Assembly (NCBI RefSeq): GCF_000215955.2
Contig: NZ_AFNV02000012.1
Span: 62,001 to 126,000 of the forward strand
Length of the DNA: 64,000 nucleotides
Direction: 5' to 3'
DNA from: Salinisphaera shabanensis E1L3A
GTDB lineage: Bacteria; Pseudomonadota; Gammaproteobacteria; Nevskiales; Salinisphaeraceae
Every line of letters begins with the position of its first letter. Within the stretch, counting starts at the first letter, position 1. Below the pieces are notes generated by a model, which was not told the origin of the DNA, made no database searches, and saw only the letters and a program-made list of their open reading frames with translations. Position numbers and translations under genes: made by a program. Shown one piece after another: positions 966 through 30,295 of the stretch.

Positions 966-1838
966 TCAGTCGTCGAACTGACGAATAGCCGCCGACAAAC
1001 TCTGCCGATGCCGGTCGATCTCCGCCCAGGGACAATCCCGCTGGCCAAGTCGACGAAAGATATTCCCCAGATGAAACCGCTGTGGCCCGATTTCGGCGTC
1101 GCTCAGCTCGTCCCAGTCCAGCGGCGTGGCGATCGGCGCGCCGGGTTTGGCGCGTAGCGAATACGGCGCGATGCCGGTCTGGGCATAGGCATTGCGCCGA
1201 ATATCAAGATACAGCCGCCCGTGACGTTTGTCCTTGCGGTGGGCGGTGGTGAAATTATCCGGGTGTTCGTCGGCAAGTTGCTCAGCCACACGCTCAGCGA
1301 AATCCCGCACCGTGTCGAAATCGGCGCTGCGATCCAGCGGGACCACGACATGCAGGCCAGAGGAACCGGTCGTCATCACGAACGCCTGTAGCCCGAGCCC
1401 GTCGAGACGCTCGCGCACGCAACGCGCCGCCTTCACCACGAGATCGAAGTCGTCGCCCGGCGGATCCAGATCGAAGATCAGCCGGTCCGGATAGTGCGGC
1501 TTGTCGGCGCGGGACAGCCAGACATGGAATGCGATCGTGCCCTGATCGACCAACCAGGCTAGCGTGTCGGCATCGCCCGCAAGGGCGTGGGTGATCTCGC
1601 CGTCTTCCTTGTCGACGGTCACCCGCTTTATCCAGTCCGGATAGTGATCCTGAACGCTTTTCTGGATGAAATTCACCCCCGCGATACCGTCTGGGAAACG
1701 ATGCAGCGTCAACGGCCGGTTCTCGATATGGCGCAACATCTCGGCCGAGATACGCTGGTAGTAATCGGCGAGATCGCCTTTCGTGTAACCCGCATCGGGG
1801 AAAAACACCTTGTCGGCGTTATCGATTTCGATACTCAT
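966..1838 (-). CDS. ligD-pol: LigD polymerase (PrimPol) domain as a stand-alone protein
   Basis: This 290-residue protein is the archaeo-eukaryotic-primase-type polymerase module of the NHEJ protein LigD, which fills or extends broken DNA ends with dNTPs or rNTPs before sealing. The metal-binding DLDPP motif gives Asp123 and Asp125, and the third catalytic acid is Asp212 in RLYLDIRRN. The conserved GLHVVVP strand is present, but it is preceded by TGSS where many LigD polymerases carry Lys one residue before the Gly. The start codon ATG overlaps the stop of the upstream ligase gene by 4 nt (ATGA), implying translational coupling. It is the last gene of a three-gene split LigD operon. A single-domain PolD-type primase is the alternative. 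Confidence 0.9.
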   Translation of the reverse strand: MSIEIDNADKVFFPDAGYTKGDLADYYQRISAEMLRHIENRPLTLHRFPDGIAGVNFIQKSVQDHYPDWIKRVTVDKEDGEITHALAGDADTLAWLVDQGTIAFHVWLSRADKPHYPDRLIFDLDPPGDDFDLVVKAARCVRERLDGLGLQAFVMTTGSSGLHVVVPLDRSADFDTVRDFAERVAEQLADEHPDNFTTAHRKDKRHGRLYLDIRRNAYAQTGIAPYSLRAKPGAPIATPLDWDELSDAEIGPQRFHLGNIFRRLGQRDCPWAEIDRHRQSLSAAIRQFDD

Positions 1839-2851
1839 GGCGCATTTTCGGGTTGTTCGCGCACGACTTCGCGTGCGTCCTTGTCGTCACGCTCGCCGAG
1901 ATAGCTGGGATGACGCAAGCGGCCGTCGTCGGTCCATTCGGTGAAGGCGAATTCCGCGACGCGCTCGGGCGTAACCCAGTGCACGCCGGCCTGATCGGCA
2001 GGCGGATCGATAAAAGGCGACGTCTTACGCTCGATTCTGTCGAGTGCGCTGCGCAGCCGGCGCAGTTCGTTTTCATCGAAACCGGTACCGACACGGCCCG
2101 CGTAGCGCAGCGCTTCATCCTCGTCGTAGTAGCCGACCAGCAACGCCCCCAGCCCGCTGCGGCTGCCCTGTGGATTGGTGAAGCCGCCGATGACCAATTC
2201 CTGGCCGTGGCTGCACTTGAGCTTAAGCCAGCGCTTGGAACGACCGCGCCGATACGGGCTGTCGGCCTGTTTGGCGACAATCCCTTCCCAGCCCTTGGCG
2301 CGTGCTTCGGCCAGATAATCTTCGCCGCTGGCGTTGCGATGGGCGGTGTAGCGCAGCGCCTTGCCGAAGTCGAACTGGCTGCGCAGCAACTGCTTGCGAT
2401 CGCGCAGGGCGACACGGCGCAGGTCGAGACCGTCCAGCCACGGGCAGTCGAACGCATAGAAATAGACCGCAACATCGCTTGCGCGCGCCGCGTCCGGGTC
2501 GCTGATACCGGAACGCTGTTGCAGCCGCGAAAAGCTCGTGACTTTGCCGTCGAAGGCAACAACCTCTCCGTCGAGCACGAAGCGCCGATGCGGCTGCGCG
2601 GCAAAGCACGCCACCAGCTCCGGAAAATGGTCGGTGCGCGACTTGCCGTTGCGGGTGAGCAGTTCGACATGATCGCCGTCGCGAAATACCAAAAGACGGA
2701 TACCATCGAGCTTGCGTTCGAAGATCCATTCGTCGTGCGAAAACGGCGTGTCGGACAACGTTGCCAGCATCGGTTCGAAATGACGCGGCATGGCAAGCCG
2801 ACGCGCGCTGTCGAGCACGTGCTCGGGCAGTTCGTCGCGCCAGTCAGCCAT
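1835..2851 (-). CDS. ligD-lig: LigD ATP-dependent DNA ligase domain as a stand-alone protein
   Basis: A 338-residue ATP-dependent DNA ligase core (adenylation plus OB fold) of the LigD class, sealing nicks and double-strand ends in bacterial NHEJ. The adenylated lysine is Lys47 in the KxDG motif of ERKLDGIR; further ligase motifs are visible as VLDGEVVAFDG, GWEGIVAK and WLKLKC. It has no N-terminal DNA-binding domain, as is typical of the LigD catalytic module. It overlaps the upstream phosphoesterase gene by 8 nt and the downstream polymerase gene by 4 nt, so all three are probably translated from one mRNA. The order phosphoesterase-ligase-polymerase equals the domain order in fused Pseudomonas LigD. 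No Ku gene is present in the window. Confidence 0.92.
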   Translation of the reverse strand: MADWRDELPEHVLDSARRLAMPRHFEPMLATLSDTPFSHDEWIFERKLDGIRLLVFRDGDHVELLTRNGKSRTDHFPELVACFAAQPHRRFVLDGEVVAFDGKVTSFSRLQQRSGISDPDAARASDVAVYFYAFDCPWLDGLDLRRVALRDRKQLLRSQFDFGKALRYTAHRNASGEDYLAEARAKGWEGIVAKQADSPYRRGRSKRWLKLKCSHGQELVIGGFTNPQGSRSGLGALLVGYYDEDEALRYAGRVGTGFDENELRRLRSALDRIERKTSPFIDPPADQAGVHWVTPERVAEFAFTEWTDDGRLRHPSYLGERDDKDAREVVREQPENAP

Positions 2852-3467
2852 CGTCGTTCGACTGCGCCTGCGCGGCGATGTCGTCGATAGTGCGGTCGCT
2901 GAGTACCGAGCCAGGCTCGCTGTTCACCGGCTTGCGACGCGCATCCGCCTGGTCGTCGTCCATTTTCACGAGCAACCACTGGCGCTTGCCGTTCTCACTG
3001 CGAAAGTGGGTCAATGAATAGCCGCCGCTGAGTTTTTCGCCGTGCAGCACCACAGTGAGATGACCGTCTTCGAAACAATCGGCCAGGCTTTTTACGATAC
3101 GGCCCTCGTCGTCGCGCTTGGCGTTTTCAAAGGCGCCGGTATCCCACACCAGAACGGTGCCACCGCCGTATTGATCGTCCGGGATCGTGCCTTCGAAGTC
3201 GGCATAGTCGAGCGGGTGATCCTCGGTCTCCACAGCGAGGCGTTTTTCGCGTGGGTCGGTGGAGGGCCCTTTCGGTACCGCCCACGATTTCAGCACGCCG
3301 TCGATCTCGAGGCGGAAATCATAATGCAGCGTCGAAGCATCGTGCTTCTGAATCACGAAGATCGGCGTATCGCCGCGCTGGCCAGCGGCGGCCGTGCCCG
3401 CGGGCTCGGGGCTGCGCGAAGAATCGCGGCGATCACGATAGCGGGCAAGCGTGTCTTGTCTGGCCAT
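2844..3467 (-). CDS. ligD-pe: LigD 3'-phosphoesterase domain as a stand-alone protein
   Basis: A 207-residue phosphoesterase module that heals 3' ends by removing 3'-phosphates or 3'-ribonucleotides before ligation. The residues known to be essential in Pseudomonas aeruginosa LigD fall at the same numbers here: His42, His48, Asp50 and Arg52 in KHDASTLHYDFRL, and His84 and Tyr88 in EDHPLDY. The tail, beyond about residue 170, is polar and lacks the linker to a ligase; instead the reading frame stops and the ligase gene starts 8 nt earlier in another frame. First gene of the operon, divergent from the cytosine deaminase gene with about 150 nt between them. Confidence 0.92.
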   Translation of the reverse strand: MARQDTLARYRDRRDSSRSPEPAGTAAAGQRGDTPIFVIQKHDASTLHYDFRLEIDGVLKSWAVPKGPSTDPREKRLAVETEDHPLDYADFEGTIPDDQYGGGTVLVWDTGAFENAKRDDEGRIVKSLADCFEDGHLTVVLHGEKLSGGYSLTHFRSENGKRQWLLVKMDDDQADARRKPVNSEPGSVLSDRTIDDIAAQAQSNDDG

Positions 3468-19578: not shown

Positions 19579-20427
19579 TTACGTCGCGCCGGCAACGCGC
19601 TCGGCGTGGGTATATACGTTGAAACGATCGCCGCGCAGAAACCCCACCAGGGTCACCCCAAACTGTTCTGCCAAGGTGACTGCATAGCTGCTCGGTGCCG
19701 ACACCGCGCATACGATCGGCACACCGGCCATCACGCTTTTCTGCAGCAGCTCGTAGCTGGCCCGGCCCGACAGCATGACGATGCAATCCGACAGTGGCAG
19801 CCGATCAGCGAGCAGCGCCGCACCAATAAGTTTGTCCAGGGCGTTGTGGCGGCCCACATCTTCACGCACCGACAGCAGCTCGCCTTGCGAATCGAACAAG
19901 CCTGCCGCGTGGATTCCGCCGGTGGATTCGAACACGCCCTGTTCGGCGCGTAGCCGGTCCGGCAACGACAACAACAGCGCGGGCGCGACTCGGCCGGGCT
20001 CGGCCTGTGTCGGTTGTCGCGCCCCCGGCGTCGGTGGCGAAAAACTGGGTTTGCCACAGACGCCACAGGCGCTGGTCGCCAGCGTATTGCGCTCGACGCG
20101 ATCGAGCCGCGCCCGCGCTTCGGGCTTGAGCATGAGCCGGATGACGTCCGCCTCGCCCGGGGCGGCACGCAGGTAGACGATATCGTCGCGCGAGCGAATC
20201 ACGCCTTCGCCGTGCATGAGGCCAGCCGTGAGCTCGGCGTCTGCGCCGGGTGTACGCATGGTGATCAGCGGCTCGGCCCCGGCGACATGAATTTCGAGCG
20301 CACGCTCCACGGCGAGCGTATCGTCGCGCGCAGCGAAACCGTCGCGCATATACGCCTGAATACGCACGGACTCGCGCGCGCAACCGGTGTCGCGGGCGCT
20401 GGCGGAATCGGCAGGGTTGGCGCTCAT
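19579..20427 (-). CDS. fdhD: Formate dehydrogenase accessory sulfurtransferase FdhD
   Basis: A 282-residue cytosolic protein that passes sulfur from a cysteine desulfurase to the bis-MGD molybdenum cofactor, a step needed for active formate dehydrogenase. The sulfur-transferring CxxC is Cys121/Cys124 in SACGVCGK; GGIHAAGLFD, VREDVGRHNALDK and SGRASYELLQK are family signatures. It is on the same strand as the formate dehydrogenase, moeA and mobA genes, interrupted by the AEC permease on the other strand. It has its own upstream region shared with that divergent permease gene. Confidence 0.95.
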   Translation of the reverse strand: MSANPADSASARDTGCARESVRIQAYMRDGFAARDDTLAVERALEIHVAGAEPLITMRTPGADAELTAGLMHGEGVIRSRDDIVYLRAAPGEADVIRLMLKPEARARLDRVERNTLATSACGVCGKPSFSPPTPGARQPTQAEPGRVAPALLLSLPDRLRAEQGVFESTGGIHAAGLFDSQGELLSVREDVGRHNALDKLIGAALLADRLPLSDCIVMLSGRASYELLQKSVMAGVPIVCAVSAPSSYAVTLAEQFGVTLVGFLRGDRFNVYTHAERVAGAT

Positions 20428-21555: not shown

Positions 21556-22065
21556 TTAATCGGCGGCGTCGTCGCCCTTTTTCGCCTTCTCGCTTGCGTT
21601 CTCTCGACGCGCCTCGGAAAAAGCCTTGGCGCCGGCGATCAGCGGCGACAGCGTGGCCCATAGTTCCTTGTCGTGCAGCAGCTTGAACACGCCGGTCACG
21701 CCCGGTGGGTTGTAGGGCGTATCGTCGCTGACCGGTTTGGCAGCCTCGGTCATGCCGGCGTTGACGGCTGAAAAGGTGCGTTCCAGCTGGTCGGGGTCGA
21801 TCTTGCCCAGCTGCTGGGCAACCACCAGCAGATTGCGCATGCCGGCATGGCCCTGCGGCGTGTTCATGCTCTCCACGGCAATGCTCGAAATCTGCGGGAA
21901 CGCGCCGGCGAAATCCTTGAGCCAGCGAATCAGCCCGGAATCGTAGAGCTCATCGAGCAGACCGTTGATTTCGGCGACCCGCCCTTCCAGGCGCTCGAAC
22001 TCGGCCAGTGTGTCCTGACGGTATTGTTTGGCCTCGGCGGGCCGGTAATGAATCTGTTCTGCCAT
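21556..22065 (-). CDS. DUF1641 protein associated with formate dehydrogenase
   Basis: A 169-residue soluble, helix-rich protein of the DUF1641 family (Bacillus YjgD/YrhD). Family members are encoded directly beside formate dehydrogenase alpha subunits of the YjgC/YrhE type, as here, 48 nt downstream of that gene. The GVTGVFKLLHDKELWATLSPLIAGAK stretch is the most recognisable part. The C-terminus is charged and rich in Lys, Ala and Asp. Function unproven; it may be a small subunit or maturation partner of the enzyme. It contains no cysteine, so it binds no Fe-S cluster of its own. Confidence 0.85.
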   Translation of the reverse strand: MAEQIHYRPAEAKQYRQDTLAEFERLEGRVAEINGLLDELYDSGLIRWLKDFAGAFPQISSIAVESMNTPQGHAGMRNLLVVAQQLGKIDPDQLERTFSAVNAGMTEAAKPVSDDTPYNPPGVTGVFKLLHDKELWATLSPLIAGAKAFSEARRENASEKAKKGDDAAD

Positions 22066-22113: not shown

Positions 22114-25110
22114 TCAGAGCCCGCTATCGGTCGGCCGGGCCTTGGGCGGGCGCTTGTAGTCTTCGCGCTTCCACTTGGCATTGACCTGTACGCCCGAGAC
22201 CGGGTTCGGCGTGGCATTGCGCTGATTGTTTGCCTTGAGCGGCGCATGCCCGTCGACGCTGAGTATTTCCATCTTCACCGCCAGCTCCTTGTAGGCCGGC
22301 GTGTCGGTGTCCTTGTCCGACTCGAAGCTGGTGAGCACGTTGATCGCTTCGATGTTCTTCTTGCCGTGCATGGGCATATACATCTGCTTGCCCGCCACGC
22401 GATCGGTGACTTCGACGCTGGCCTTGATCGCGCCGCGACGCGACACGAGCCGTACGATGCTGCCGGGTTTTACGCCGCGCTCGGCCGCGAGCTCGGGTGA
22501 CACTTCGACAAAGCTGCCCGGAATCTTGAACACGATGCCGGCGGTCTCGTCGGTGAGGTTGCCTTCGTGGAAGTGCTCGAGCAAACGACCGTTGTTCAGG
22601 TGCAGATCGTACTCGTCATCGGGCTGGTCGGTCGGCTCGGTCCAGTGCACCGGGTGGAAACGGGCCATCCCGTTCTCGAAATGAAACTGGCCGTTCGAAT
22701 ACAGATTGGCCTGGCTCGTGCCATCGGCCGCGACCGGCCACTGCTGTGAGTTGAAGCCTTCGAGCCGATCGTAGTGGACGCCCGCGAACATATCGGCAAT
22801 CGAGGCGGCCTCGTGCATGATTTCGCTGGGGTGGCTGTAGTTCCAGTCCGCGCCCATCGCACGCGCCAGCTCGGTATGAATAAGCCAGTCGGGTTTGGAA
22901 TCGCCCAGCGGCTCGAAGACCTTGTACAGGCGCTGAATACGGCGCTCGGTGTTGGTGAACGTGCCTTCTTTCTCTACCGACGGGCTGGCCGGCAGGACCA
23001 CATCGGCGAACTCGCAGGTGCGCGAGAAGAACATGTCCTGCACGACCATGAATTCGAGCTTCTCGAAAGCCGACTGCACATGCAGCGCATCGGAATCGAC
23101 AATGCCCATGTCTTCACCGGCCACATAGAGCGCTTTCAGGTCACCGTCGTGCATATGGGTGACCATCTCGTGGTTGTTCAACCCCTTACGTGTGGTGAGT
23201 TCCACACCCCAGGCCTGCTCGTAGCGGGCGCGCACGGTGTCGTCGGTCACGAAATCGTAGCCGGGGAAACGCCCTGGCATGCAGCCGAAGTCGCTCGCGC
23301 CCTGCACATTGTTATGGCCGCGCATCGGGTAACCGCCGGTAGCGAAGCCGCCCATGTTGCCGGTGAGCAGCAACAGGTTGCACAGCGCGGTGGCGGTGTC
23401 CGACCCCATGGTGTGCTGGGTCACGCCCATGGCCCAGATGCCGCAGATGGTCTTGGCTTCGAGCACCATGTCGACAATACGATCCAGCTCGTCCTGGCTC
23501 AGGCCACAGCGCTGCTGGGCGAATTCCATCGTGAACGGCTCGAGGCTTTTGACGTAGTCGTCGTATTCTTCGACAGACTTTTCGATGAAGGCGTCGTCGG
23601 CACGCCCCAATTCGACGATGCGCTTGGCCACCGCATTCAGCCAGATCATGTCCGTACCCGGCTCGGGTTTGACGAACATATCGGCACGCTGCGCCATTTC
23701 GTTCTTACGCAGGTCGGCGACGATATGCTTCTGGCCGTGCAGCTTCTTGGCGCGCTTGAGCCGGGTCGCGATCACCGGATGGCTTTCAGCCGTGTTCGAA
23801 CCCACGATGATCAACAGTTCCGAGGCAGCCAGATCGGCAATCGAGCCGGTGTCCGCGCCGTAGCCGACGGTACGCCAGAGGCTCTCGGTCGCGGGCGCCT
23901 GGCAGTAGCGCGAGCAGTTGTCGATATTATTCGTGCCCATCACCGCGCGCGCGAACTTCTGCATCAGATAGCCTTCCTCGTTCGTGCATTTCGAGGAGGC
24001 GATATAGGCCAGAGCGTCCGGCCCATTGGCCTCGCGGATTTCGTTGAAACGACGTGCGATCAGCGCATAGGCTTCCTCCCATTCGGCTTCGCGGAAGGCG
24101 CCGTTTTCACGGATCAGCGGCTTGGTCAGGCGATGTTCGCTGTTGATATGGCCCCAGCCGAACTTGCCCTTGATACAGGTTGAAATGCCGTTGGCCGGTG
24201 CTTCCGGCTGCGGCTGCACCTTGAGCAGTTCGCGCCCGCGCGTCCACATCTCGAACGAACAGCCCACACCGCAGTAGGTGCACACGGTCTTGGTGCGTTT
24301 GAGCTCGGTTTCGCGCATCGCCGCGTCGACTTCCGAGACGGCAAAGATCGGCCCAAAGCCCGTGGTGTGCTCAGCCGCCTTGACCAGTTCGATCGCCGAG
24401 CGGCCCAGCTGCTGGTAACGCCCACGCGCCTGTGGCGACAGCGCGGTCATCGGCCCGACATTGCCGATCATGGTTTTTTCCAAGAGCGCGTTGCAGGGGC
24501 AGACCGTCACGCAGTGCCCGCAGGAGACACAGGAGGAATCTTCGATCGGGATATCGTCGTCCCAGATCACGCGCGGGCGGTCGCGGCTCCAGTCGATCGA
24601 CAGCGTTTCGTTGACCTGCAGGTTCTGGCAGGCCTCGACACAGCGGCCGCACAGGATGCACTGGTCCGGATCGTAGATATAGAACGGGTTCGAGTAGTCC
24701 TTTTCGTAGGGCTTGCCGCGAAATTCGTAGTGCTGACCCGGCACTTCCATGTCGCGCACGGTGTTGTGCACTTCACAGTTGCCGTTGTTGTTGTCGCACA
24801 CCGAGCAGTACAGATCGTGATTGGAGGCGATGCGGTCGATGCCTTCGTGACGCGCTGCATGCGCGGTATCGCTTTCGATCGTGACCTCAAGGCCGGGTTT
24901 TACCGCCACGCTGCAACCGCGCACAAGATTGCCGTCGATCTCTACAAAACAGGTATCGCAGGTTTGCAGCGGGCCCAGGCTGGGGTGATAGCAGACATGT
25001 GGCAGATAGATGCCGGTGCCATCCAACGCCTCGGGCAGCAGCTGGCCGGGGCGTGCCCATACCGTACGCCCATCAACCGTGATTTCGATCTGTTCGGCGA
25101 CGTCATCCAT
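22114..25110 (-). CDS. fdhF: Formate dehydrogenase alpha subunit, cytosolic FdhA/YjgC type
   Basis: A 998-residue molybdenum/tungsten bis-MGD oxidoreductase expected to oxidise formate to CO2. Domains in order: 2Fe-2S ferredoxin (Cys40, 51, 54, 66); NuoG-like His-Cys3 cluster (His98, Cys102, 105, 112); two 4Fe-4S clusters (Cys151-161 and Cys194-204); then the catalytic part with its own 4Fe-4S cluster (Cys277, 280, 284, 312). The Mo ligand is Cys403, where E. coli FdhF has selenocysteine. The next residue is Gln404 instead of the His normally needed in formate dehydrogenases. No NAD-binding diaphorase subunit is encoded nearby. AGGAGA precedes the ATG at 25110. DUF1641 follows in the same operon. 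Confidence 0.88.
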   Translation of the reverse strand: MDDVAEQIEITVDGRTVWARPGQLLPEALDGTGIYLPHVCYHPSLGPLQTCDTCFVEIDGNLVRGCSVAVKPGLEVTIESDTAHAARHEGIDRIASNHDLYCSVCDNNNGNCEVHNTVRDMEVPGQHYEFRGKPYEKDYSNPFYIYDPDQCILCGRCVEACQNLQVNETLSIDWSRDRPRVIWDDDIPIEDSSCVSCGHCVTVCPCNALLEKTMIGNVGPMTALSPQARGRYQQLGRSAIELVKAAEHTTGFGPIFAVSEVDAAMRETELKRTKTVCTYCGVGCSFEMWTRGRELLKVQPQPEAPANGISTCIKGKFGWGHINSEHRLTKPLIRENGAFREAEWEEAYALIARRFNEIREANGPDALAYIASSKCTNEEGYLMQKFARAVMGTNNIDNCSRYCQAPATESLWRTVGYGADTGSIADLAASELLIIVGSNTAESHPVIATRLKRAKKLHGQKHIVADLRKNEMAQRADMFVKPEPGTDMIWLNAVAKRIVELGRADDAFIEKSVEEYDDYVKSLEPFTMEFAQQRCGLSQDELDRIVDMVLEAKTICGIWAMGVTQHTMGSDTATALCNLLLLTGNMGGFATGGYPMRGHNNVQGASDFGCMPGRFPGYDFVTDDTVRARYEQAWGVELTTRKGLNNHEMVTHMHDGDLKALYVAGEDMGIVDSDALHVQSAFEKLEFMVVQDMFFSRTCEFADVVLPASPSVEKEGTFTNTERRIQRLYKVFEPLGDSKPDWLIHTELARAMGADWNYSHPSEIMHEAASIADMFAGVHYDRLEGFNSQQWPVAADGTSQANLYSNGQFHFENGMARFHPVHWTEPTDQPDDEYDLHLNNGRLLEHFHEGNLTDETAGIVFKIPGSFVEVSPELAAERGVKPGSIVRLVSRRGAIKASVEVTDRVAGKQMYMPMHGKKNIEAINVLTSFESDKDTDTPAYKELAVKMEILSVDGHAPLKANNQRNATPNPVSGVQVNAKWKREDYKRPPKARPTDSGL

Positions 25111-25182
25111 GCATAGTCTCCTAAGTCGGCCCTGATACATTGCATCTTCGCACGATCATGTTGCACGCAAGATAAAGGCCAT

Positions 25183-25214
25183 AAAAAAGCCCGTCGTGCG
25201 AGGCACGACGAGCT
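25183..25214 (-). terminator. Rho-independent terminator after the OFA carrier and small subunit
   Basis: On the minus strand, AGCTCGTCGTGC pairs with GCACGACGGGCT (12 bp, one wobble) around loop CTC, followed by six T. It separates the transporter pair from the formate dehydrogenase gene, 36 nt after the small-subunit stop. Confidence 0.85.
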
Positions 25215-25249
25215 TCAGACGATGGCGGACGCTGCCTACTGGCCAGCGT

Positions 25250-25384
25250 TCAGCCGGTGAACAGACGTAGCGCCTTCACCAGCGTTTCGCAAAAACCCCA
25301 GAGGGCGGGGATCGTGACCAGGGCCCAGAGGGCGGCGATCTGCCATGTCGGCGTCGTGGCCGCAGATGTGGCTTCGGTATTCAT
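25250..25384 (-). CDS. Small membrane partner of the OFA-family MFS transporter, 44 residues
   Basis: A 44-residue protein with one hydrophobic helix (residues about 15-33: WQIAALWALVTIPALWGF) and a short basic tail (KALRLF). It was found by reading the gap between the carrier and the terminator: AGGAG lies 7 nt before the ATG, the frame ends 36 nt before a strong terminator, and it follows the carrier gene by 68 nt. It resembles the little-known small proteins that accompany oxalate/formate-type MFS carriers in Proteobacteria (MFS transporter small subunit); that match is from memory, not from a search. A second ATG immediately upstream could also serve. Probably a single-pass subunit or stabiliser of the carrier. 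Confidence 0.65.
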   Translation of the reverse strand: MNTEATSAATTPTWQIAALWALVTIPALWGFCETLVKALRLFTG

Positions 25385-25452
25385 CATTGTCTCCTGCATG
25401 ATGCAGCAAATCAAATCCGTAAATTCATGGAGCGCGCAACGCGGCGTGTGGC

Positions 25453-26814
25453 CTATTCGGGATTACTGGGGTCGCCTTCGTGGTGGTGCTTGTCGTCCAC
25501 CGGGCGCACGAGCAGGTTGCAGACCAGTCCCACGGCCAGCAGAGCCACCATGATGTAGAGCGTCGTGGTATAGGCATCCGCGGGCGCCACGCCGGCGTCG
25601 ATACGCCCTTCGCGCAGCTGGTTGAGCAGCACCGGCCCTGCCACGCCGGCCGCAGCCCAGGCCGTGAGCAGGCGGCCATGAATGGCGCCGACGTGCATGG
25701 TGCCGAAGATATCGCGCAGGTAAGCCGGCACGGTGGCAAACCCGCCACCATACATCGACACGATGATGCAGCAGGCCAGCACGAACAGCACGATGTTGCC
25801 GCCGGCCGCGATACTCGGCACCGCGGCATAGAGCAGCATGCCGAGCACGAAGAAGATGACGTACGTCATCTTGCGGCCGATGTAGTCCGAGGTGGAGGCC
25901 CAGAAGAAGCGCCCGGCCATATTGAAGATCGACAACACGCCCACGAAGCCCGCAGCCGCGGCGGCGCTGGTGCCGACCATTTCCTGGGCCATCGGCGAGG
26001 CTTGCTCTAACAGCGCGATACCGGCGGTGACGTTGAGAAACAACACCATCCAGATGAAATAGAACTGTGGCGTTTTCATCGCCTGGTTCACGTGCACATG
26101 ATTGCGCGTGATCATCTTGTCCTGTTTACCGTCCTGTTCGGGATCGAAGCCCTGCGGCTGCCAGTCCTTGGCGGGGATACGCACAATCAGCGCGCCGATC
26201 ATCATGAACAGGAAGTAGATGATACCCATGGCCACGAACGTGGAACCCACGCCGACCGTGTCGGGCCCGGAAAACAACCCCATCAGCGATGTCGCCAGCG
26301 GCGAGCCGATCATCGCACCGCCACCGAAACCCATGATCGCCATACCGGTGGCGAGTCCGGGCCGGTCGGGAAACCACTTGATCAGCGTGGATACCGGCGA
26401 GATATAGCCGATACCCAGGCCGATGCCGCCGATCACGCCGTAGCCCAGATAGACCAGCCAGATCTGATGCCACCACACGCCAAAGGCCGACACGATAAAG
26501 CCACCGCCGAAGCAGGCTGCGGATAGCGTCATGGCCTTGCGCGGGCCGACCCGCTCCAGCCACCGGCCGCCAAAGGCTGCGGACAGACCGAGTGCCGCGA
26601 TGGCCAGTGAAAATATCCAGGCCAACGTCGACTGCGACCAGTCTGCCGGCGCGGATTCGGTTACGCCGACGATCTGTGTCAACGGAATCTTGAATACCGA
26701 AAATGCATACACCTGCCCGATACACAAGTGGATACACAGCGCAGCAGGCGGGACCATCCACCGATTGAACCCCGGTTTGGCAACCGTACTGGATTTATCG
26801 AAAAAACCGGCCAT
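25453..26814 (-). CDS. OFA-family MFS transporter (oxalate/formate antiporter-like)
   Basis: A 453-residue, 12-helix major facilitator of the OFA family, which exchanges or imports small carboxylates such as oxalate and formate. Family marks are WMVPPAALCIHLCIGQVYAFSVF in helix 1, GYGVIGGIGLGIGYISPVSTLIKWFPDRPGLATGMAIMGFG between helices 4 and 5 (the region from about residue 125 to 165), and a cytosolic 4-Fe-independent tail rich in His and Asp at the end. The ATG giving MAGFFDKSST is used, not an upstream start. Oxalate-degrading genes (frc, oxc) are absent here, while a formate dehydrogenase follows, so formate uptake is the better guess. It shares a transcript with the 44-residue gene. 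Confidence 0.85.
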   Translation of the reverse strand: MAGFFDKSSTVAKPGFNRWMVPPAALCIHLCIGQVYAFSVFKIPLTQIVGVTESAPADWSQSTLAWIFSLAIAALGLSAAFGGRWLERVGPRKAMTLSAACFGGGFIVSAFGVWWHQIWLVYLGYGVIGGIGLGIGYISPVSTLIKWFPDRPGLATGMAIMGFGGGAMIGSPLATSLMGLFSGPDTVGVGSTFVAMGIIYFLFMMIGALIVRIPAKDWQPQGFDPEQDGKQDKMITRNHVHVNQAMKTPQFYFIWMVLFLNVTAGIALLEQASPMAQEMVGTSAAAAAGFVGVLSIFNMAGRFFWASTSDYIGRKMTYVIFFVLGMLLYAAVPSIAAGGNIVLFVLACCIIVSMYGGGFATVPAYLRDIFGTMHVGAIHGRLLTAWAAAGVAGPVLLNQLREGRIDAGVAPADAYTTTLYIMVALLAVGLVCNLLVRPVDDKHHHEGDPSNPE

Positions 26815-26952
26815 ATCTTCCCCCAGACAAAGACTCGGTGCAGGCAGCACGCATGAGCTTGACCGCACCCTAGCAGCTGCATGCCGTATGCAACCGCTTC
26901 TCCGACCAAAGTTGAGTCACGCGCCGATACGGTGGATCCGCCGCGGCCAGGT

Positions 26953-28227
26953 TCAGTCCACAGGATGGCCCCAGATCGTCTGAGCGAACGGCTCGACCGT
27001 CACGATCTCGCCGGCCGGCACGTCGTTCTGCGCAGCAGGCAGCACGATGAAACAGTCCGCCGTGCTCATCGAACGCATCACACCCGAACCCTGGTGATCG
27101 ATCGGATCAACGGCCAGCCGGCCGCTATCGGTTGTCACCAGCCGTGCGCGCAGGAAGTTCTCGCGGCCCGGGCTTTTGCGCAAATCGGCCAGCGTGGGCA
27201 GGTCCAGGCGTACAGGCGCCGCCGGATGCCCGCCTGCCATGCGTACCAACGCCGGGCGCACCAACTGAATGAAGGTGACTGCGGTGGATACCGGATTGCC
27301 TGGCAGGCCGAAAAAGCGTGCATTGCCCAGCATACCGAAGGCCAACGGCTTGCCTGGTTTGATGGCGACCCGCCAGAAGTCCACCGATCCTTGTTCACCC
27401 AGAACATCCAGCACGAAATCGGCTGCGCCGACCGATACGCCGCCGCTGGTCACGACCGCATCGTAGGCGGCGGCTTTCTCGAATGCCGCCCGCAGCGCCT
27501 CGGGCGAATCACCCACCACGCCCAGATCGATGCCTTCCATACCCAGCTCACTGAGTAGCGCGGCCAAACCGTGGCGATTGCTGTCGTAGATTTCGCCCGG
27601 CTCGATCGGCCCGTCGATCGGGCGCAGTTCGTCGCCGGTCGAAAAGAAAGCAACCCGCGGCCGGCGCACGACGCAAACCTCACTCACACCGACCGACGCC
27701 AGGACCGCGATATCGGACGGGCGCAGATAAGAACCGGCGGCCAGCACCGTGGCGCCCGCGGCAATATCCTCGCCCGCTGCACGAATATTGCTGCCGGGCT
27801 TCGGCCGCTGCGCCACCACCAGTCGATCGCCCTCGGCATGCGTGTTTTCCTGCATTACCACCGTGTCCACGCCGGCAGGCACCACGGCGCCGGTCATGAT
27901 GCGTATACACTGGCCAGTGCCGAGCGAACCGGTATAGGGATGTCCGGCCATACTCTCGCCGACGATCTCCAGCGCGCCGCCGTCTTCCGCCATGTCCGCA
28001 GCGGCATAGCCGTAGCCGTCCATCGACGAGTTGTCCGCGCCTGGCACATCGATATCCGAGACGACCTTTTCTGCGAGTACGCGGTGCAAAGCCGTCCGTA
28101 ACGGCACGCGTTCATGCTCGCGAATCGGCGTCATCGTGTCGACGATCCGCGCGCGTGCCTGTTCGAGCGGCATGGGTTTGTCTTTTGGCGTCGGACGAAA
28201 ATCCGACGGTTCGGAGGGTTGCGGCAT
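26953..28227 (-). CDS. moeA: Molybdopterin molybdenumtransferase MoeA
   Basis: A 424-residue cytosolic enzyme that inserts molybdate into adenylated molybdopterin to give Moco. Visible signatures are PGADNSSMDGYGYAAADM at about 63-80, the GAVVPAGVDTVVMQE segment, STGDEL, and the MPT-binding TSGGVSVGAADFV and GLPGNPVSTAVTF. Length is usual for MoeA. It is followed by intergenic DNA before the OFA gene and lies 36 nt downstream of mobA, so mobA-moeA are probably one operon that supplies cofactor for the neighbouring formate dehydrogenase. Confidence 0.95.
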   Translation of the reverse strand: MPQPSEPSDFRPTPKDKPMPLEQARARIVDTMTPIREHERVPLRTALHRVLAEKVVSDIDVPGADNSSMDGYGYAAADMAEDGGALEIVGESMAGHPYTGSLGTGQCIRIMTGAVVPAGVDTVVMQENTHAEGDRLVVAQRPKPGSNIRAAGEDIAAGATVLAAGSYLRPSDIAVLASVGVSEVCVVRRPRVAFFSTGDELRPIDGPIEPGEIYDSNRHGLAALLSELGMEGIDLGVVGDSPEALRAAFEKAAAYDAVVTSGGVSVGAADFVLDVLGEQGSVDFWRVAIKPGKPLAFGMLGNARFFGLPGNPVSTAVTFIQLVRPALVRMAGGHPAAPVRLDLPTLADLRKSPGRENFLRARLVTTDSGRLAVDPIDHQGSGVMRSMSTADCFIVLPAAQNDVPAGEIVTVEPFAQTIWGHPVD

Positions 28228-29719: not shown

Positions 29720-30295
29720 CTAAGCGTCGAAACGCGCGCTGCGCTTGGGCGCTAGGCGTTCGAGAAAGGCTTGCTGATCGGCCAGGATACGGCGGTTCGC
29801 AAGAATCAGCCATTCTGCGAGATTGGGCTCATAAGGCAACGCGAGCAGCGTCATGCCGGCTTGTTCCGGGGTGCGGTCGTCCTTGAACCGATTGCAGCCT
29901 TCGCAGGTCGACACGACGTTCGTCCAGGCATGTTCGCCGCCCTTGGAACGCGGCATCACATGCTCGATCTGCATCTGCGAGAAACTCAAGCGGGTACCGC
30001 AGTACAGGCACAGGCCGCCATCGCGGTGAAACAACTCACGCCGCGTCAGCGCCGGCACCAGATTACGGGCAAAACGATGCGAACGATCGCGGACCGCGAT
30101 AATGGAATCGATCTCGATCTGGCTGCGCAGGCCGGTCGAACGCGAGCGCCCGCCGCGCAGACAAATCTTTTCGCTGCCCGCCTCCCAGGCGATCTTGTCG
30201 GTAAAGTACAGGCTGACCGCTTCGCGCCAGTCCACCCATTCCACGGGCAGGCCGCCGGCATCCAGTTTAAGTATGCGTGGAATCGTTGCTGCCAC
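29720..30295 (-). CDS. HNH endonuclease family protein
   Basis: A 191-residue protein with a zinc-stabilised HNH nuclease domain in the middle: CLYCG (Cys96, Cys99), the catalytic IEHVMPRSKGG with Glu111-His112, TNVVSTCEGCN with Asn126, Cys131 and Cys134. This is the conserved HNH protein found as a single chromosomal gene in many Proteobacteria, with the N-terminal block WVDWREAVSLYFTDKIAWE. It is not flanked by an intron, integrase or methyltransferase, so it is unlikely to be a homing or restriction enzyme. Substrate and purpose unknown. Confidence 0.88.
   Translation of the reverse strand: MAATIPRILKLDAGGLPVEWVDWREAVSLYFTDKIAWEAGSEKICLRGGRSRSTGLRSQIEIDSIIAVRDRSHRFARNLVPALTRRELFHRDGGLCLYCGTRLSFSQMQIEHVMPRSKGGEHAWTNVVSTCEGCNRFKDDRTPEQAGMTLLALPYEPNLAEWLILANRRILADQQAFLERLAPKRSARFDA

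Follow-up and report, generated by a model that had tools for sequence, protein, structure and literature searches.

A small gene behind an MFS carrier

An MFS carrier is commonly regarded as complete with a single chain. We asked whether a short reading frame that follows an MFS carrier gene in Salinisphaera shabanensis E1L3A is a genuine gene, and whether its product and the carrier form a single two-part transporter, as an earlier note on this DNA had proposed. In the window, the whole stretch of 64,000 nucleotides that was analysed, both frames read on the minus strand as that note had stated: a carrier of 453 residues and a small protein of 44 residues (MNTEATSAATTPTWQIAALWALVTIPALWGFCETLVKALRLFTG) (Table 1). 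The two genes are 68 nt apart, and the small gene is present in a single copy in the genome. Alternative in-frame ATGs would lengthen its product to 45 or 49 residues. The AGGAG site claimed for the small gene was confirmed ahead of the ATG of the 44-residue reading, and GGAG was found within 18 bases ahead of the start in 20 of the 22 relatives that carry a separate gene, the exceptions being L038 and L066. The claim that carrier and small gene share a terminator was likewise borne out by a strong hairpin with a T run, which sits between the small gene and the formate dehydrogenase gene. Its 61-nt stretch folds at -29.7 kcal/mol, and 0 of 200 shuffles folded as well. A terminator consensus scan of 25100-27000 returned 3 sites against 1.4 (sd 1.4) expected from shuffles, one inside the carrier gene, one inside the small gene and one overlapping the end of the 25189-25213 hairpin.

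Table 1. Features of the carrier locus, in window coordinates
Feature	Position	Strand	Remarks
Small subunit gene	25250..25384 including stop (codons 25253-25384, stop at 25250)	-	44 aa plus stop
AGGAG ribosome-binding site of the small gene	25391..25395	-	6 nt ahead of the ATG of the 44-aa reading
MFS carrier	25453..26814 including stop (codons 25456-26814, stop at 25453)	-	453 aa, ATG start; NF049980, Pfam MFS_1
Intrinsic terminator 3' of carrier and small gene	25183..25213 (stem 25189-25213, then T run TTTTTT)	-	folding z = -6.2
Formate dehydrogenase alpha subunit, next gene downstream	22114..25140	-	TIGR01591, 788.6 bits (cut-off 666.25)
FdhD sulfurtransferase	19579..20427	-	NF001943, 285 bits (cut-off 269)
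MoeA molybdopterin molybdotransferase	26953..28227	-	NF007960, 534.3 bits (cut-off 440)

The small gene belongs to a catalogued family, NCBIfam NF047966 (MFS_OXA_tail_dom), named 'MFS transporter small subunit'. Its product matched this model over residues 13-43 with 30.2 bits (cut-off 24; E = 2.4e-7), a low score for a protein that nothing else separates from the family, and approximately the same residues form its one predicted helix, in agreement with the single helix read in the earlier note. A Pfam search with E up to 1 returned no entry. Selection was estimated from nine copies of the small gene in the Salinisphaera group, a set without L072, which is a near-copy of L036. Pooled over the 36 pairs, pN/pS was 0.38; the window gene gave 0.02 against L035 (16 synonymous and 1 non-synonymous change) and 0.29-0.53 against the other seven relatives. 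Purifying selection thus acts on the small gene, which, together with the family match, shows it to be genuine. Loss of the short frame among relatives had been named in advance as one result that would speak against the proposal; the frame was conserved with pN/pS below 1, and the helix was present in all 45 relatives whose locus is intact at the 3' end.

It is therefore hardly credible that the frame is a chance ORF or the decayed C-terminal tail of a formerly fused carrier. A tail form is known in relatives, as a decayed tail would suggest, but the frame has its own ribosome-binding site and start, has pN/pS values of 0.02-0.53 across the eight relatives and matches a curated family, and both explanations were rejected because of selection, family match and ribosome-binding site together. 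A decayed tail is further opposed by the rooted tree described below, in which branches with a separate gene flank the fused ones, the deepest branch order being unsupported.

Carrier type and gene neighbourhood

The carrier had been labelled a member of the OFA family, which now appears doubtful. It failed the cut-offs of TIGR00890, the model of the oxalate/formate antiport (OFA) family (203 bits, cut-off 374.85), and of TIGR04259, the model of OxlT (128.1 bits, cut-off 335), but passed NF049980, the model of the SfMCT L-lactate MFS transporter (357.9 bits, cut-off 320); Pfam MFS_1 was matched at 2.7e-34. The model of a fused relative, from which 12 helices are predicted for the carrier, found its best fold matches in 6hcl and 6zgs, with SfMCT and OxlT first and human MCT8 and MCT1 after them. 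SfMCT of Syntrophobacter fumaroxidans (6g9x, 6hcl, 6zgr-6zgu) thus shares with the carrier the NF049980 match, the best fold, a Tyr in TM4 and an Asn and an Arg in TM8. These residues of SfMCT, Y119, N276 and R280, serve carboxylate binding (PMC6573034) and align with Tyr153, Asn332 and Arg336 (L051 numbering). Among the carriers that have the helix as partner, the TM4 Tyr was present in 76/76 rows with a residue there, and the TM8 Asn and the TM8 Arg in 69/69 each; all three were also present in 18/18 partnerless rows.

OxlT (8hpj, 8hpk) has the same fold and a distant sequence kinship with the carrier. Its Arg272 and Lys355 are both essential (PMC10070484). Arg272 (TM8) is kept in the carrier, whereas Gln34 is not, and the column of Lys355 (TM11), counted on the alignment, holds Trp in 69/69 partnered rows with a residue there; in the 18 partnerless rows it holds Trp (10), Phe (7) or Tyr (1). 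Because Lys355 is replaced while the Arg is kept, oxalate is unlikely to be carried. An oxalate antiporter was rejected as first choice given this replacement and the scores below the OFA and OxlT cut-offs, and oxalate, which had been suggested as an assay substrate beside formate, is doubtful in that use, formate being likelier. By its sequence the carrier would be an SfMCT-type (SLC16-like) monocarboxylate carrier, and the label of oxalate/formate antiporter is unsupported.

The window neighbours of the carrier include MobA in addition to the genes of Table 1. A formate dehydrogenase-like gene was found in the available flanking DNA, at most 4 kb on either side, in 29 of the 46 loci assembled below, a raw count in which some loci are near-copies and some genes encode distant molybdopterin enzymes of ~25% identity. 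The 17 loci with no such gene in this flanking DNA include several on short contigs. Among 93 neighbour proteins from 23 of the 46 loci, molybdopterin enzymes of the formate dehydrogenase type were the commonest, with 6 members in this pooled count, which is not a count per locus. Formate dehydrogenase genes also lie beside the carrier in 2 of 4 plasmid records, including that of Deinococcus deserti. These neighbours suggest that the carrier probably imports formate for the adjacent formate dehydrogenase. There is a substantial chance, somewhat below even, that the substrate is instead another monocarboxylate (lactate, pyruvate, glycolate) or oxalate and that the formate dehydrogenase neighbourhood is incidental: the best curated match is an L-lactate carrier, and the 17 loci would fit. 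Such a reading is opposed by formate dehydrogenase, FdhD or molybdopterin genes adjoining the carrier in several distant groups, Deinococcus among them, and, for oxalate specifically, by the replaced Lys355.

Two other genes of the window were noted. The gene at 21556-22065 (minus strand), after the formate dehydrogenase gene, had no NCBIfam match at E 1e-5, and the gene in the same place in Deinococcus deserti is annotated DUF1641. The product of the gene at 29723-30295 (minus strand) is a small HNH-type protein; among curated models it matched part of Cas9d (1.7e-17) and IscB best, in both cases far below the cut-off.

Helix and carrier across genomes

The earlier note had suggested a search for the same pair in other genomes, and the pair was found. 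Genome contigs were scanned with the carrier, which gave 46 loci, or 45 after L076, whose carrier is cut by the contig end, was dropped. The helix was found in all 45: in 22 it is encoded by a separate gene, downstream of the carrier and on its strand, and in 23 it closes the carrier chain as a C-terminal tail. The helix profile used here was built from these loci and 32 earlier ones, and its weakest match among the 45 was L063 (E 2e-3). The closest named relatives were Salinisphaera, with a carrier identity of 96%. Two loci stood out for their labels. L035, titled Endozoicomonas sp. G2_2, has a carrier 92% identical to that of the window in a Salinisphaera gene order and is perhaps a mislabelled or mixed assembly; L069 holds tandem fused carriers (1-1416 and 1574-3268) on a contig whose assignment to Candidatus Paceibacterota may reflect a binning error.

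Independently, 398 genomes drawn across phyla and 14 control genomes were scanned with NCBI's own NF047966 model. This gave 54 helix matches in 52 of the 398 genomes and none in the controls. The helix was in the carrier's own frame in 41 matches (39 were read, and G217 and G253 were judged by equal frame length) and a separate gene in 12, so that 53 of the 54 lay in or beside a carrier. A listed carrier was directly upstream on the same strand in 50. The remaining four comprise G143 and G271, which are fused, G139, whose upstream carrier is divided between two overlapping frames, and G166 (L116 1971-2315), which has no carrier. In G166 the tail helix ends a frame of 92 residues whose start resembles carrier helix 2 by eye, and it is probably a remnant after an internal deletion.

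The partnered carriers depart early from the SfMCT model, which has 378 positions: in all 50 the match stopped at 363-365, whereas among the 150 matches listed only 1 of the 100 carriers without an adjacent helix ended that early (G039, below cut-off). Carriers of this draw were scored for, as a rule, at most four candidates per genome, and the 150 listed matches were examined; 100 of these carriers of the wider family had no partner beside them. In a careful tree of 85 carriers, nine partnerless ones formed one side of a branch (support 100/100). Among these sequences the helix thus marks one carrier clade.

On the same tree the fused state required 2 changes, and 0 of 200 bootstrap trees could do with only 1. 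The second fusion comprises L109 and L110; support for the grouping with their closest relatives is weak (47/94). An earlier quick tree, which showed a single fusion, lacked the rows or labels of the second one and is superseded. It was made without L007, L021, L055 and L067 (short matches), without L001, L094, L097, L100 and L105 (repeats of other loci) and without the partnerless L092, L095, L096 and L103, which the window carrier did not match at E 1e-20. For the tree of 85 carriers, 26 further near-copies were removed, L021, L055 and L067 were restored, and L115 and L120 were not included; L108, L127 and L128 are repeats of L110, L104 and L003, and L116 is without a carrier. Both trees carry a long-branch warning. 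With a long outgroup and no support for the deepest branch order (49/0), the ancestral form, fused or separate, is not readable from the tree. Recurrent fusion of the same two partners is classically taken to mean that they act together in a complex, and a fused state with at least two changes argues for a permanent subunit.

Over 91 distinct helices, P15 and G19 of the motif GIPLxWG were invariant, as was F31 where present (80 rows), and W9 (97%), V12 (96%) and T23 (92%) were strongly conserved. The window helix has T and A where most of the 91 have the G and L of GIPL. The moment of conservation peaked at 100 degrees per residue. Over columns 7-31 the value at 100 degrees was reached by 143 of 20,000 shuffles, and by 59 of 3,000 with the best angle from 90 to 110 taken; over all 31 columns the counts were 213 of 20,000 and 108 of 3,000. 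The pattern points to a single conserved face (W, V, L, T, A and a neighbouring G), as expected for a one-sided contact; Pro15 and Trp18 lie off this face. AlphaFold2 models of two fused relatives placed a tail helix of 29 to 30 residues behind a poorly ordered linker, with pLDDT of 81-93 in 10-residue blocks of the helix (71 at the last residue of the second model) and 43-61 in the linker, values that describe the helix itself and not its docking. Clade-specific carrier residues, in a corrected count, were scattered over 11 of the 12 helices and singled out no docking site.

For topology the two available cues differ. If the carrier core has 12 helices with both ends inside, as presumed, the tail helix should begin inside and end outside. 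Positively charged residues generally favour the cytoplasmic side, and the helix has its K/R residues towards the C terminus; by this positive-inside rule they would indicate the orientation opposite to the one derived from the fusion.

Proposed role and known systems

Taken together, it is fairly probable that the 44-residue protein is a permanent single-helix subunit of an SfMCT-type carrier, docked by its conserved face, in the service of formate import. In the mechanism that we infer for docking, topology, need for activity and substrate, the helix would pack through this face (W, V, L, T, A and the nearby G) onto the outside of the 12-helix carrier, with the N terminus of the small protein cytoplasmic and its C terminus periplasmic. 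It would maintain the fold of the carrier or a conformation in which the carrier works, and the carrier would bring in formate for the formate dehydrogenase encoded alongside. The two-part carrier of the earlier note is hence probably right in substance, the pairing having strong support from conservation, adjacency and fusion, while its OFA label is doubtful.

The helix may instead be an assembly or stability factor only, an insertion chaperone or a protection from proteolysis with no role in transport after folding, and we give this reading a good chance, if not quite an even one. It has precedents in the basigin and embigin partners of MCT1-4, which serve trafficking and are seemingly no prerequisite for transport (PMC6573034), and in MgtU and MgtS, which stabilise MgtB and MgtA (PMC10710835). 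A permanent tail fusion fits a stability role as well as a working role, and the sequence data, compatible with either, contain nothing specific against it. It is unlikely that the small protein regulates or inhibits the carrier under certain conditions, in the way of SgrT, MgtS or AcrZ. Small proteins on bacterial transporters do act as regulators of activity, specificity or turnover (PMC10710835), but the helix is fused in 23 of the 45 relatives and at two places in the tree, where it has no independent supply, and in the window the first strong terminator past the carrier comes after the small gene, which also speaks for a constant subunit.

The nearest working likeness is the MCT1-basigin complex, offered for its layout, with no kinship claimed. 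The human monocarboxylate carriers MCT1-4 (6lz0, 7ckr, 9l0b) have the same fold, and their partner, basigin or embigin, crosses the membrane with one helix; the basigin helix contacts TM6 of MCT1 (PMC11176948). Basigin and embigin differ in being glycoproteins with Ig domains, whereas the small protein here has just 44 residues and no Ig domains. In SfMCT, from which the partnered clade departs early at the C-terminal end, the crystallised chain of 420 residues aligns with the carrier to residue 411, so that it has no room for a tail helix. AcrZ, MgtS, MgtR, SgrT and others are likewise of about 50 residues or fewer and act on a transporter. Their targets are RND, P-type ATPase, phosphate, manganese and PTS carriers (PMC10710835), and in the passages drawn on here from that review of how bacterial transporters are modulated, none of the small proteins has an MFS carrier as its target or is said to be fused to the transporter it acts on.

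We consider more tentatively, and with some doubt, a broader reading: a clade of bacterial SLC16-like carriers with an obligate basigin-like docking helix needed for the transport cycle, that is, a minimal counterpart of MCT-basigin which arose independently and was at least twice turned into a thirteenth helix. The whole clade appears to need the extra helix, either as a tiny gene, which gene finders may miss, or as a tail. Where the helix has a gene of its own, a carrier expressed in its absence may seem inactive, and the natural fused and separate versions offer a direct route to testing what an added helix does to an MFS carrier. Within its family the small gene is thus unremarkable, and it raises a good structural question. 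What is added here to the catalogue entry is the link to a clade, the at least two fusion changes, the conserved face and the assignment of the carrier to the SfMCT type.

Such accessory subunits had been called little described. The kind was already named as NF047966, although a literature search for 'MFS transporter small subunit' and broader terms, at the level of the titles and abstract starts listed, found no paper on the family; at listing level, a search for proteomic support in Deinococcus deserti gave nothing usable. The small gene had also been thought easily missed by gene finders. This held for one of four plasmid records, whose gene table, incomplete by its own description, omits the gene that is present in the DNA; the other three list it, two under the name 'oxalate:formate antiporter' and one as a 'hypothetical protein'. 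All four records name the carrier relatives 'OFA family MFS transporter'. Caballeronia strains are among the relatives in which the small gene is separate. A tblastn search of plasmids with a relative of 40 residues had no match at E 1e-3, which we attribute to sensitivity because the carrier search reached plasmid records that contain the small gene. Two records named Neisseria gonorrhoeae, NZ_CP119142.1 and NZ_CP119140.1, are of chromosome size (2.17 Mb) and hold a carrier 58% identical to that of the window. A further 96 plasmid records, from Lactococcus, match the carrier at E 1e-60 or better.
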